Part shown: positions 21,960 through 48,574 of the stretch, in pieces
How the letters are laid out: every line of letters starts with the position of its first letter
Numbering within the stretch: the stretch's first letter is position 1
Assembly: GCA_024516155.1 (NCBI GenBank)
Contig: JAJJXM010000037.1
Coordinates: forward strand, 186,001 to 250,000
Source: Pyronema omphalodes
Lineage: Eukaryota; Ascomycota; Pezizomycetes; Pezizales; Pyronemataceae
DNA: 64,000 nucleotides
Direction of reading: 5' to 3'
Notes under the pieces: generated by a model
What the model was told of the DNA's origin: nothing
The model's input: the letters and a program-made list of their open reading frames with translations, nothing else
Databases searched by the model: none
Made by a program: the position numbers and the translations under genes

Positions 21960-22031
21960 TTGGTATGTATATAGAGACGATTAGAGATGATGACAATGCT
22001 TATGGATTGCATACATGATCCAGGGTGTAAA

Positions 22032-22056
22032 ATGTGGGGCGATGACTACCCCGCAT
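22032..22056. promoter_or_regulatory. Palindromic GGGG/CCCC element, distal copy
   Basis: ATGTGGGG and CCCCGCAT form an inverted pair separated by 9 bp. The same element with the same spacing is at 22515-22539, and about 50 bp after each copy is also similar. It could be a binding site for a dimeric regulator; this is inference. Confidence 0.5.
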
Positions 22057-22514
22057 GGTGACGCATTTACAGCACCCCCTCAAACACGATTTCTTTCCAT
22101 CACAAAGTATTTCTTTATTGAGTTATACGTTAACCGAGGCCTAAAAGGCCCATACAGGACTGGTCATAAGGTCATCTCAAGATTCTCAACCTCTCATTGC
22201 TACCCGTGGGCTTCATTACGAGCCGTCATTTCGCTATCAATTTAACCTAGTATTCAAGCAATGCGTGTGGAATTAAATTGACGCGCCGAAGCATGATTAT
22301 ATCCTACATGACAGAAATCAATACGAGAAAAAGATAAGCATGCATAAAGGTTTGAAAAACTTGGGTATAGGGTGTAGATTTTGTATGGGCGTAATGGACG
22401 AGAAAAGGTGGCATGCAAATCAGAGAGTGACTACACCTGTGAGTGGATAGGATCATAGCTGATATCTGTGCTTCTGGAGTACATATGTACGTACATCATG
22501 CTCCGCGGTGCGAA

Positions 22515-22539
22515 ATGTGGGGCGCTAATTACCCCGCAT
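22515..22539. promoter_or_regulatory. Palindromic GGGG/CCCC element, NLR-proximal copy
   Basis: Identical half-sites to the distal copy, 110 bp upstream of the NLR start codon. The region following it (ACAGTACCCCCTCAAA and ACAAAGTAT) is also shared between copies, as is a CATCAATT..ACCTA block just before the ATG. The arrangement suggests a duplicated promoter. Confidence 0.55.
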
Positions 22540-22649
22540 CCTGACTGGCTTACAGTACCCCCTCAAATACGCTTCCTCTACAAAGTATAATACTCTGAAC
22601 CTTTTGTCGTTGCTTTTCATATCGCCATCAATTCAACCTAATCTTAGTG

Positions 22650-25600
22650 ATGGATCCACTGAGCTTTTCCGCAAGCGTCGCAGGCCTTCTCAGCATAGCT
22701 ATAGAAGTCACTGAGATTCTCACAGCGTACGGCCACGATGTTAAAGATGCGCCCAAAGACGCTTCCGAGCTCAACATCAAAGTCTCTATCTTATGCAATG
22801 TCTTGGAAGCATTGGTTAGCACCCTTCGAAGTGACAACACGCAGACCATCACGATTGGCGAACAGTCCTTCCTGTACTGTGTTATCAGCTCATGCGAACT
22901 CCATGTTAAGTTGATATACAAGAATATCATGAAGCTTCGTGATACCAATACATTGAAGGCTTTAAAGGGACGACTGTCGTGGCCATTTCAAAAGGAAGAA
23001 TGTTTACGGAGCATTCAGACGCTACACCAATATTCACAGACGATTGGGCAACTTCTCGTTCTTTCTAACCGGTAATATTCACTACAATCGCTACCGACGC
23101 ACTGAACAAAATTGCTGATATGCTCCAGTGGCTTGATGTTACAGGAATTTGACGCGGTCATGGCAAAGCTCGAGGAACAGCAGAAAGAAATCATCTTATC
23201 AATGCGGATAATGAGAGAGAATGTGCCAGAATTACAGGTCATGATCCAAATGTCCGATAGCATTACAACTATGATGAGCCTGGTCTCCAAACTGTCTCGC
23301 GATAGTGCCGAGGATAGAAAGAAAATATCCGACGGCGTCACCGTGTTGTGTGCTCGGAAGAATGGTGAGTTCCTATTGCGGTCGGTTAGTATGATGCGTT
23401 AGCTAAACAATCATAGATGAAGAACTAAAGGAGATCTTACAGTGGATCTCCCCGCTCGAGCCCCTAAAAAGATACGAAGATCTCAAATCGAAGAGATTTG
23501 AGGGCACCGGAGCGTGGTTCTTAAAATCTCCCAAGTTTGTGACGTGGTGCCATGGCACGGCTTCGGATAAAGGGTATAACCCGGTTTTAGCGTGCTATGG
23601 GATCCCTGGTTCCGGAAAGTCTGTTATGAGGTAAGAGGTGTTTCTCTGTCACGTGCATGGAAACGTGAATTTTTAACACACCTTTGCCAGTACGTTGGTG
23701 ATTGATACCCTCTACGCGCTTCCTTCTACCGACGAAAATCGAATTGCCGTGGCGTATTTTTACTGCGATTACAGCCATAATGAAAAACAAACAGCAGTGA
23801 ATATGATCACTGCGCTGCTGGGACAAGTCATCAATGCACACTCTGACCACCTCCCAGTGGCTGTTATTGCCACCCTCAAGGAGCAGAGATCCAAAGGCAG
23901 ACCAACGCTGGAAGAATCCTATCAGTTCTTGGAGTCCGCATTGCAATGTTTCAGCAGGTTTTACATATGCATTGATGCTCTGGACGAGTGCCTTGATGAG
24001 CACCGTAAGGACTTTCTACACCTGATTACACGCCTTCTGCAACGATTCGGCAGTCACGCAGCTCGTATATTCACCACTTCAAGGCCTCAAATGAAGATAT
24101 CCATCAAAACGCCATCCGAATTCCCTCCATGCAAGTTTGAGCTTGAGGCAAATGAGGATGACATCAGGAAATACATCGAATCGAAACTTGAAAAGGACGA
24201 GAACTTTGCGGATGGCCAGGGCTCGGATTTGTTCAAGCAGAAAATCATGGAGAAAATCCTTGAAACTGCCAGCGGAATGTGAGTCCTTACAAATATGTTT
24301 CACTTCGGCTATCATGAGCTAATGCATTGGTTTTCCAGGTTTCTGCTGCCTGCACTCCAGATCGAAACAGTGCTGGAGCAAACGAGCGTTCGCAAAAGAC
24401 GTGCTAAACTCGACTCCATGCCAAAGAAGCTCGAAGATGCCTTCCAAGTCACCATTGATCGCATTAAGAGACAGGCTCCAGGAAAAGCCAGCCAGGGAAT
24501 GGAAGTCTTGAAATGGGTCTATCTCGTAAAACGACCACTCTCGGTTATGGAGATGCGCCACGCGCTTGCAACAGTCGAATCTGCCCCCAACGCCGAATGC
24601 CTTGACCTGGATGACTTGCCGTTCGAAAAGTCGTTGACTGAATGTTGTCATGGCCTTGTGGTGATAGATAACGAAACATCCACGCTTCGACTCGTCCATA
24701 AGTCCTTGCAAGACTTTCTGACGGATCAGTACGAAGCGTCCAAATTATTCAACACCGGTCATCGAGATATTGCGCTCGTTTGTTTGAGATATATGAGCTT
24801 CAGCGATGGTAGTACATCTAGTACTTCGGTATGTGACGTCGATGCAATAAAAAGAATGATCGGCCTCGGACCAAACTACCAGTCATCCTTCAGTGAGGAC
24901 TTCAGTAAAGCGGCATCTGAACACATTGACCGCTTCCCACTGCTCGCTTATGCCGTATATTTTTGGGGGCATCACGCCAAAGGAAATATCGACCACGAGA
25001 TCAAACAACTAGCCGTTGATTTCCTACAATATCAGGCTAAACCACATCGAATTTCACGAAACCTTGGCTCGGTTCTATGGTTCTTTCCAAGACTAGGCTG
25101 GTTCTTGCACAGCGTCAAGAGGGAAAACCAGTATCTTGTTCAACTTTCAACCGAATTCGGCGGAGTACATATCATCGCGTATTTCGGGCTCCACGAGATA
25201 TATGGACCTCTTGTTGAAAAACTAGACCATTTTGATATCAACTGCTTGATTTTGAGAAAAACAGCACTTGGACTAGCGTCCCAGCATGGCCATTGTTTGG
25301 TTGTCCGTCTGTTGATTGAAGACGGTGCACAGGTCAATTGCATGGATAAGCATGGGAGAACACCGCTCTCATGGGCCGCCAAAAATGGGAACGACAATGT
25401 CGTCCGTTTCTTGATTGAGAAGGGGGCACAGATTGACCCGAAGGATCAGGATGGACGAATGCCGCTATTCGTGGGAGCCAAACGTGGGCACAAGAATGTG
25501 GTCCGTATGTTAATTACCGCAGGAGCTAAGGTGAATCCGGAGGATTTCCATGGGCAAACAGCGCTGTGCTACGCAGCCGCAGGAGGTCATGAGGATGTTG

Positions 25601-26322
25601 TCCGCCTGTTGATCGAGAGGCGAGCGCGAGTTGACTCGACGAATCGGGTTGGAAAAACACCGCTCTCCGTTGCAGCTGAATGGGGCCACGAAAATGTCGT
25701 CCGTCTGTTGATCGAGAAAGGGGCCCATGTGGAATCGAAGGATAAGAATGAGCAAACATCGCTTTTTGGAGCTGCCACCAGGGGGCGGGAAAATATCGTC
25801 AGTTTGTTGATCGAGAAGGGGGCGCAGGTTAACGCGATGGATCGAAATGGGGAGACGCCACTGATTGGAGCCGCCAGGATGAGGCGCGAAAATGTCGTTC
25901 GTCTGCTCATAGAGAAGGGTGCACTGGTGAACTCAAGGAATAGATTTGGGAAAACACCGCTATACGAGGCCGCCAGAGTAGGACAGCAAAATGTCGTCCG
26001 TTTGTTGATCGAGAAGGGGGCGCAGGTCGACTTGAAGGATCGGGATGGAAGTACACCGTTGTCCCGGGCAGCCAACCGTGGGCATGAGGATATCGTTCGT
26101 CTATTGATCGAGAAGGGGGCACATGTTGACTCGAGGAATAAATTTGGGCAAACACCGCTATTCGAGGCCGCCCGAAGGGGACGTAACAGCGTCGTCCGTG
26201 TGTTAATCGAGAAGGGGGCGGACGTTGACTTGAAGGACCTGGATGGGAATACACCGCTTTCAGTTGCCACTAAGAATGGACACAAAGATGTTGGATGCGT
26301 ACTGATGGAAAGAGGAGAATAA
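22650..26322 (+). CDS. NLR/STAND receptor: Helo-like N-terminus, NACHT, ankyrin repeats
   Basis: Five phase-consistent exons, 22650-23071, 23129-23364, 23417-23630, 23691-24278 and 24339-26322, encode 1147 aa. Residues 1-140 (MDPLSFSASVAGLLSIA...) match the Helo-like N-terminal domain of fungal STAND proteins. The NACHT ATPase has Walker A GIPGSGKS at 281-288 and Walker B around 381-391 (FYICIDALDEC). A winged-helix-type region follows, with LVHKSLQDFL. From about 793 to the end are 11 ankyrin repeats of 33 aa with the shared phrase VVRLLIEKGA. Such proteins sense non-self or pathogen cues and trigger cell death or incompatibility in fungi; the ligand here is unknown. ATG 22650 is the only suitable Met at the start of the domain. 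The gene appears intact although transposon fragments surround it. Confidence 0.9.
25256..26319 (+). repeat. In-frame 99-bp ankyrin tandem repeats
   Basis: Eleven units of 99 bp (33 codons). Units 2-10 are very similar at DNA level, with GTCCGT.TGTTGATCGAGA recurring in most. Differences fall mainly at repeat positions 2, 6, 7, 10, 11, 13, 14 and 26. The last unit is shorter. Confidence 0.9.
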
Positions 26323-45700: not shown

Positions 45701-45894
45701 CTCCATGGCACCTTAACTCCTTGGCTCTTTGGGCTTTGATAAGGTAAGGTAAGCAAGGAAAAATGATCTTAGTTCGTTGTTATTATCCATATATCTAGAC
45801 CAAGATTTCAAATTTAGAATTTCTTATTGTTTTTAACATACAAAAATTTCCGCCTGCTACTGGTAGATTCATGCTGTGACGAGGAAATAAACGA

Positions 45895-46511
45895 AAACCA
45901 AAAACCAAAAACCAAAAACCAAAAACCAAAAACCAAAAACCAAAAACCAAAAACCAAAAACCAAAAACCAAAACCAAAAACCAAAAACCAAAAACCAAAA
46001 CCAAAACCAAAAACCAAAAACCAAAAACCAAAAACCAAAAACCAAAAACCAAAAACCAAAAACCAAAAACCAAAAACCAAAAACCAAAAACCAAAAACCA
46101 AAACCAAAAACCAAAAACCAAAAACCAAAAACCAAAAACCAAAACCAAAAACCAAAAACCAAAAACCAAAAACCAAAAACCAAAAACCAAAAACCAAAAA
46201 CCAAAAACCAAAAACCAAAAACCAAAAACCAAAAACCAAAAACCAAAAACCAAAAACCAAAAACCAAAAACCAAAAACCAAAAACCAAAAACCAAAAACC
46301 AAAAACCAAAAACCAAAAACCAAAAACCAAAAACCAAAAACCAAAAACCAAAAACCAAAAACCAAAACCAAAAACCAAAAACCAAAAACCAAAAACCAAA
46401 AACCAAAAACCAAAAACCAAAAACCAAAAACCAAAAACCAAAAACCAAAAACCAAAAACCAAAAACCAAAAACCAAAAACCAAAAACCAAAACCAAAACC
46501 AAAAACCAAAA
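45895..46511. repeat. (CCAAAAA)n heptamer array
   Basis: About 88 copies over 617 bp, mostly 7-bp units with a scattering of 6-bp (CCAAAA) variants. Extremely long open frames (QKPKTKN on one strand, GFWFLVF on the other) run through it on both strands and are artefacts. Confidence 0.97.
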
Positions 46512-46892
46512 AACAACCCACCCACCCACAGAAAACCAACCCACCCACCCACAAAAAACCACAACACCAGACATCCCCTATAATCAGAACAACGGTACGT
46601 ATGCGTTCATATTCATGATTCTGTAATTACATCTCTCTACATATTTCAACATATCAAGTACCATAAACATAAACATATTACCCCTGATATATATAGTATC
46701 CATTCTCTATACAATATCATAAAAGAAAGAAGTCTAAGTACCTACATATGTACCTTTATAGCCATAAGGAAGGTATTCATATAATATCATTCGATTGGAA
46801 TTTTTTGAGGACGGTGGTGGGATTTTTTTATTTTCTTCCTTCTGTTTCGTTTCTTCTGTTGGTGGAATAAATATATTTTCATCTTTATCTTT

Positions 46893-47238: not shown

Positions 47239-47507
47239 TAAACCATAAACCATAAACCATAAACCATAAACCATAAACCATAAACCATAAACCATAAACC
47301 ATAAACCATAAACCATAAACCATAAACCATAAACCATAAACCATAAACCATAAACCATAAACCATAAACCATAAACCATAAACCATAAACCATAAACCAT
47401 AAACCATAAACCATAAACCATAAACCATAAACCATAAACCATAAACCATAAACCATAAACCATAAACCATAAACCATAAACCATAAACCATAAACCATAA
47501 ACCATAA
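47239..47507. repeat. (CCATAAA)n heptamer array
   Basis: About 38 perfect copies. With CCCAAAT and CCAAAAA it is a third 7-mer array in 9 kb with the C-rich strand on plus. Confidence 0.97.
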
Positions 47508-48574
47508 AAACACCACAGCATATCACATCACATCACACCACAGCACAGCACACCACAGCATATCACATCACATCACATCACAGCACATCACATCACATCA
47601 CAAATGTTCAAAAAGTCAGTCTCCGACTCCGACTCTCCGGACAATTTAATTATAGTCGTCGACGATGCCAAGGTTAGGATTATTTTTTCATCGAGGAGCA
47701 ATAGTTTTGTTTATGAAATATACAGGCTGATGGATTATGGATATGGATATGGATATGGATAAGGGGATTGATCGACATTTATTCCGGGTTAAAAATATCA
47801 TGACTGATACTAGAAGAACAGTAAAAAAAAAAAAAAAAGAGAACAGAAAAAAAAAAGAGAAAAGACGAAAAGATAGGCAGAGAAGAGAAGAGAAGAGAAG
47901 AGACTGTTCATGATGCATAAGATAAGATCCATAAGGTAAGATAAGTAAGTAAAGACCGAAGACTGAATCAAAAATACAAATAACAATCATAAATAAACCA
48001 AAAAGAAAACGGCGTACATAGAGCAAGACATGAGACGAGAGCATAGATATCACACCAAAGCAAACACAACCACACAACACAACCAGACAACAATAATAAG
48101 AATACAAAGATAAATATAGATAAATCAATGGAGATAGATGGAGAAATAGATCAAAAGATAGAGATATAGAAGGAAACCAAAAAAGGCCATAAACAACAAA
48201 AAAAAAAAAAACATATCAAGGATATCAAAAAAAACATCAGATCGAACTCAAAAACAAAGGATATATGAAAGCATACATGAAAAAAGAAAAAGGTCAAAAA
48301 AGAAAAGAAAAGACCAAAACACATGACAACAAACAACAAAAAAAGATCCCATAACACCAAGCAAGGCAATAAACCAAACCCTCAGATCTGGTACAAAGTG
48401 TGAAAAAAAATGAAAATCCCTAAACTGAATAAATAAAAAAGCCTTCCCTCCCTATCTGCCTCCCTCAATAAAACAAACGAAACCCTTGATTCTGTTCCCC
48501 AATTTATCCATTCCATCAACTTACCATCCCCCTGTTCCCATTGGTTCGGCCTCGCTCATCTTTCAGTTCAACCA
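47508..48574. other. A-rich 3' flank of the Yap1-type gene
   Basis: CATCACA repeats (47515-47600), GGATAT repeats (47735-47760) and then A-rich sequence up to the stop of the Yap1-type gene. Minus-strand frames give only Phe/Leu/Ser low complexity. Confidence 0.6.

Follow-up and report, generated by a model that had tools for sequence, protein, structure and literature searches.

An intact NACHT-ankyrin NLR gene with an old repeat array, in a Pyronema omphalodes paralogue cluster that is probably diversifying at the concave face

The gene at positions 22650-26322 of the window, a 64,000-nucleotide stretch of Pyronema omphalodes contig JAJJXM010000037.1, appears from its sequence to be an ordinary fungal NACHT-ankyrin NLR, a known kind of receptor gene, intact and under constraint. 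It is labelled gene W here. The best explanation, considered quite likely, is that gene W is an intact fungal NLR with an old ankyrin array, in a cluster of six paralogues that is probably diversifying at the concave face of the repeats. The first-pass annotation had suggested that it may be an actively evolving recognition receptor and not a relic. It does not look like a relic, as its frame is intact and its omega before the array is 0.26-0.38. Active evolution is indicated for the family, by excess replacement at six positions and by differing repeat number, but not for gene W alone, which has no supported selected site and gives p = 0.45 at the six positions. The likelihoods attached to the explanations below overlap and are not meant to add up to one.

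In the splice model, gene W has five exons on the forward strand and encodes 1147 aa, with GT-AG at all four introns and a single terminal stop. Exon 1 (22650..23071) contains the start codon and the N-terminal region, which matches the PigL_N/HeLo-like profile PF17111 in Pfam. Exon 2 (23129..23364) is a linker. The NACHT domain starts in exon 3 (23417..23630), which is defined by the splice model and the NPHP3_N match, and its remainder is in exon 4 (23691..24278), defined by the splice model and Pfam. Exon 5 (24339..26322) contains a weak winged-helix match, a linker and the entire ankyrin array, and ends with the stop codon at 26320-26322. NPHP3_N (PF24883), a NACHT-type NTPase profile, is above the Pfam cut-off at residues 249-422 (E = 1.2e-33). 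GIPGSGKS at 23599-23622 in exon 3 is presumably the Walker A motif, and FYICIDALDEC at 23959-23991 in exon 4 is what we take to be a Walker B-like motif. The match of PF17111 to the N-terminus (E = 1.8e-4, 21.4 bits) is below the cut-off of 27.2 bits, which is passed by two P. omphalodes proteins, BZA77DRAFT_345631 (P0001; 34.1 bits) and 345612 (P0002; 33.7 bits). These correspond by N-terminal sequence to paralogues E and B. PigL_N is termed HeLo-like in the accessible text of PMC9815663. The GPIID_WHD winged-helix match in exon 5 (21.8 bits) is under its Pfam cut-off of 27, and the NCBIfam matches of exon 5 are all below cut-off and reflect the ankyrin repeats. The NACHT/P-loop NTPase is preceded by an N-terminal effector region and followed by C-terminal repeats, all in one open frame, which is the architecture of fungal NLRs. 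Neither a broken frame nor relaxed constraint, either of which would mark a relic or pseudogene, was observed; before the array, omega between gene W and the five paralogues is 0.26-0.38 (303-307 codons).

Related proteins of gene W number 721 at E <= 0.001, and those with a named organism among the 120 matches listed are all fungal. P0001 and P0002 are 75% and 72% identical to gene W over 61% of the query, and as deposited they stop ahead of the ankyrin array that the DNA carries downstream. The protein of gene W itself is absent among the matches listed. No close orthologue from P. omphalodes CBS 100304 is among the 120 matches listed per protein search, and short gene models are outside the length limits; one may still exist among unlisted proteins or short models. 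The NPHP3_N profile has 158 matches across the 60.8 Mb genome, with exon pieces counted apart. No paper on a Pyronema NACHT-ankyrin family was recognised among those listed by the literature searches, and the accessible text of PMC3778014, on the P. confluens genome, mentions NACHT once and ankyrin never.

The in-frame ankyrin array reported by the first-pass annotation in exon 5 is real at 25261-26319, based on the Pfam Ank_2 match (E = 5.1e-111) and regular helix pairs. It consists of ten full units of 33 residues (99 bp) at 25261..26250, with mean identities of 53% aa and 63% nt, and a partial eleventh unit of 23 residues at 26251..26319. The AlphaFold2 model of exon 5 with 15 homologues has a mean pLDDT of 84.9, mostly over 90 in the array, and places the array helices at unit positions ~2-9 and ~12-20. 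Another helix pair is predicted at 25162..25221, before unit 1 (exon 5 protein residues 275-282 and 285-294), and it is possibly a degenerate capping repeat. Natural ankyrins and designed ones are among the 60 of 316 matches listed from the PDB sequence search, and 4GPM is one of these entries. 4GPM is the template used in PMC4986451, as far as the accessible text describes it.

The units had been called nearly identical, which they are not. Pairwise identity among the ten full units averages 52.7% at the amino acid level (36-73%) and 63.3% at the nucleotide level (53-80%), and no pair out of 45 reaches 85% aa identity. There is no exact repeated tract of at least 30 bp within them. The core VVRLLIEKGA, described as constant, is exact in only three of the ten units (5, 7 and 8). 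In the accessible text of PMC4986451, highly internally conserved repeats are defined as units over 85% identical across at least 100 aa. With a mean of 53%, a maximum of 73% and 0/45 pairs at 85%, gene W is not among the NLRs with highly conserved internal repeats, to which it had been likened.

Unit positions are numbered here with the T of TPL as position 1; in PMC8415598, in the part accessible, this T is position 4. The 13 positions named earlier as variable correspond to 4, 5, 8, 9, 11, 12, 24, 27-31 and 33 in our register. Their variability is borne out, as 12 of them rank in the array's top 13 by variability and the remaining one has an entropy of 0.88 bits. Their proposed ligand-facing placement is correct for seven (5, 8, 9, 29, 30, 31 and 33), which are concave, but not for the others. 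According to the table in the accessible part of PMC8415598, position 4 is core, 11 and 12 are convex, and 24, 27 and 28 are basal. In the ankyrin alignments there, and in that paper's numbering, 1, 3, 11, 12 and 33 are among the most diverse positions; 1, 3, 8 and 33 lie on the concave face, where they are diverse and rich in contacts, and positions 11 and 12 are unconserved. Our positions 5, 8, 9, 30, 31 and 33 are equivalent to its 8, 11, 12, 33, 1 and 3.

Eight of the 13 hotspots are common to seven ankyrin arrays (73 units) outside the cluster, and the entropy profiles of gene W and these arrays are correlated (Spearman 0.72). Entropy averaged over the 13 positions is 2.18 in gene W and 1.71 (sd 0.14) in 10-unit samples of the outside arrays, a contrast that is circular because the positions were picked from the gene W array. 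Positions 4, 12, 24 and 27 are more variable in gene W than in the outside arrays. The entropy comparison includes only runs of at least six units with exact 33-residue spacing, so that arrays with 34-residue spacing (e.g., L040 and L041) were dropped; paralogues E and F enter it as partial loci, with 15/22 and 15/19 full units.

Within gene W alone, synonymous divergence exceeds replacement divergence. Between units, pN/pS is 0.51 (pS 0.58, pN 0.30), with 0.80 at the named positions and 0.27 elsewhere, and the Jukes-Cantor dS is ~1.1, near saturation. This comparison had been proposed as a refuting test for selection between the units, and it went against that idea. Core unit positions are constrained (omega 0.25). 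The grid codon model detected no positively selected site with posterior over 0.9 in this array. The test on positions 5, 8, 9, 30, 31 and 33 gave omega 1.56 (p = 0.45) with only 10 units, and the pair-count ratio was 0.87. Gene W units compared with their nearest paralogue units gave a ratio of 1.17 (bootstrap 0.89-1.61). RIP was considered as a source of hypermutation and rejected, since the indices of gene W (TA/AT 0.54, substrate 1.31) show no RIP.

Gene W and paralogues B, C, D, E and F constitute six genes over ~170 kb on one contig (C164). Repeat number differs among them: including partial units, there are 16 in B, 10 in C, 9 in D, 23 in E, 20 in F and 11 in gene W. In the region before the array, dS among C, D and E is 0.11-0.17 with omega 0.65-0.85, and dS between gene W and these three is 0.40-0.43 with omega 0.36-0.38. 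The dS of gene W is 0.62 to B and 0.92 to F. As dS within the gene W array is ~1.1 against 0.40-0.92 between genes, the gene W units split before the paralogues did. Adjoining paralogue B, there is a truncated second match to the N-terminal region (L031:2080-2847, minus strand; query residues 1-246). It has no NACHT match in the following 2 kb, and introns may account for the stops within the alignment.

The grid codon model was applied to groups of these genes. Positions 5, 8 and 9 have posterior over 0.95, and 30 and 31 over 0.9, in C+D+E; with gene W added, these are 5, 8, 9 and 31 (over 0.95) and 33 (over 0.9); for all 83 units, 5, 8 and 33 (over 0.95) and 30 and 31 (over 0.9). This per-site test is anti-conservative, with at least three of six neutral sites called in 4/52 and 4/58 simulations. 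The six positions were picked after these results. Taken together, they have omega 2.40 in W+C+D+E (LRT 17.2), and none of 66 neutral two-tree simulations was as extreme. Omega is 1.92 in C+D+E (LRT 10.1) and 1.88 for all 83 units (LRT 8.5). The test on the cluster is partly post hoc, because the six positions were chosen first and only later matched to the diverse concave positions of PMC8415598. The outside arrays therefore provide an independent test, and the seven of them gave omega 1.92 (LRT 12.1, uncalibrated by simulation).

Single paralogues are less consistent, with p = 0.0043 for C and no significance for D (p = 0.46) or E (p = 0.40). Pair counts at the six positions are weaker, with a ratio of 1.42 at the strictest threshold (0.025 of bootstrap replicates at or below 1), 1.15 at each of two looser thresholds (0.194 and 0.187) and 1.26 for C, D and E (0.082). 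A pair count restricted to pairs with little synonymous divergence in total was biased and was discarded. The eight published concave positions have omega 1.00 over all 83 units. Another set, which we take to be the positions randomised in DARPins, was tried first and mostly failed, with a pair-count ratio of 0.84 in the cluster and an omega of 1.00 for the 83 units together; it reached significance only for W+C+D+E (p = 0.041) and C alone (p = 0.013). Excess replacement at the six concave-face positions is probably a property of the family only, and it is not uniform across tests.

It is somewhat unlikely that positive selection acts nowhere and that the pattern merely reflects how much change the surface of ankyrin repeats normally tolerates. 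The sharing of 8/13 hotspots with arrays outside the cluster, the diversity of positions 1, 3, 11, 12 and 33 (in that paper's numbering) already seen in the ankyrin alignments in the accessible part of PMC8415598, and the looser pair counts of ~1.15 are consistent with such tolerance. However, replacement at the six positions exceeds the synonymous rate both in W+C+D+E, with 0/66 null simulations as extreme, and in the outside arrays, and pair-count ratios of 1.37 and 1.42 (0.049 and 0.013 of bootstrap replicates at or below 1) argue in the same direction. The proposal that the repeats of gene W are themselves highly conserved internally, and diversify by repeat shuffling and selection, is quite improbable. 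A unit identity of 53%, with 0/45 pairs at 85% and without any exact repeat of 30 bp, contradicts internal conservation, and pN/pS of 0.51, the lack of a selected site, p = 0.45 at the six positions and the nearest-paralogue ratio of 1.17 speak against selection within this array. Still, its variation covers known hypervariable ankyrin positions, addition of its units to C+D+E lifts the six-position LRT from 10.1 to 17.2, and its middle may have turned over, as units 3, 4 and 7 have no match in the cluster above 0.72 nt identity while 1 and 2 match units C1 and C2.

A decaying receptor, in which homogenisation ceased after gene W lost its function, is very improbable. Its units are old and diverged, as such decay would leave them, and decay may occur in the cluster, because a stop stands in paralogue F where codon 4 would be. 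Gene W itself, however, has no internal stop and has canonical splice sites, and omega is 0.26-0.38 before the array and 0.25 at core unit positions. The stop in F (L035, near 7836, minus strand) is located by comparison with the equivalent start region.

Under the preferred reading of an intact NLR with an old array, the differences between gene W units are mostly long-standing ankyrin variation, because the array is old and without recent homogenisation. Diversifying selection is probably acting on the six concave-face positions across the cluster, and such selection at the binding face would add to these differences. By analogy with other members of the family, gene W would most likely use its concave face to bind a cue that is either non-self or modified self. 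Its NACHT domain would then oligomerise, and the HeLo-like N-terminal domain would trigger regulated cell death. Variation at the binding face is normal for ankyrin repeats, and by itself it is no proof of an arms race in one gene.

Units 1 and 2 of gene W correspond to C1 and C2, with nt identities of 0.88 and 0.80, and its other units lack a clear positional partner in C, D and E. The best match in the cluster for units 3, 4 and 7 is at most 0.72 nt identity. Since units 1 and 2 have counterparts and these three do not, turnover of the array middle is possible. The nearest unit is in another gene for nine of the ten full units of gene W and for 17/17 of C and D. In paralogue E (L034, C164:312105-315266), 19 of the 22 full units are nearest to another E unit. 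Paralogue E contains exact repeats of 126 and 123 bp. Nucleotide identity between its units reaches 98%, and of 231 unit pairs, 10 are at least 85% identical at the amino acid level. The exact repeats point to recent internal duplication.

Three tandem ankyrin genes, ~7.6 kb apart and with corresponding units 99-100% identical, are present elsewhere (C232:8235-25804; L044, L055 and L056). They are open for 657, 767 and 800 aa. The third copy differs from the second by the duplication of a block of two units and the loss of a single unit, a net gain of one, for which an assembly artefact is possible. Based on the exact repeats of E and this rearrangement, repeat turnover is visible in the genome but not in gene W, and paralogue E and the triplet are better objects than gene W for its study.

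The cluster could serve as a shared repeat bank, in which the array middles of the recently duplicated receptors C, D and E are replaced from a common pool centred on the 23-unit gene E and at most some end units are kept in place. This is regarded as unlikely. Such replacement would reshuffle binding faces among the genes as well as inside single ones. Alternatively, the C, D and E arrays may simply have been inherited from one array in a recent ancestor.

Gene W resembles Pa_3_8560 and Pa_2_8180 of Podospora anserina, as described in the accessible text of PMC4986451, in its NACHT domain and ankyrin units of 33-34 residues, in variation at concave-face positions and in changing repeat number, here among paralogues. 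The Podospora genes differ in their PNP_UDP N-termini and internal conservation over 85%, against the HeLo-like N-terminus and 53% identity of gene W. For Podospora repeats whose internal identity exceeds 85%, that text describes polymorphism in repeat number as well as positive selection. The HNWD genes het-d, het-e and het-r, as far as covered by the accessible text of PMC12222747, are similar in having NLR sensor repeats with positions under diversifying selection in a multigene family. They carry WD40 repeats, which share over 80% identity inside one gene and differ more from one paralogue to the next, unlike the full units of C and D, all of which are nearest to a unit of another gene. 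This Pezizomycete case points to a Podospora-like combination: there are several NACHT-ankyrin receptors, their repeat numbers differ, and replacement is in excess at six positions, which coincide with the diverse concave-face positions known from ankyrins.

Upstream of gene W, an 86-nt element at 22497..22582 (forward strand) contains the imperfect palindrome GTGGGGCG-N5-TACCCCGCAT, 133 bp before the ATG. Another copy, 77% identical to it, is at 22014..22099 on the same strand. A relaxed pattern occurs four times in the 60.8 Mb genome, twice upstream of gene W and once each upstream of paralogues C and E, and a weaker form precedes paralogue B. Elsewhere in the window, long near-perfect and perfect satellite arrays with a 7-bp unit are located at 45894-46516 and 47239-47508, with ~90 copies of AAAACCA and ~39 copies of TAAACCA, respectively.
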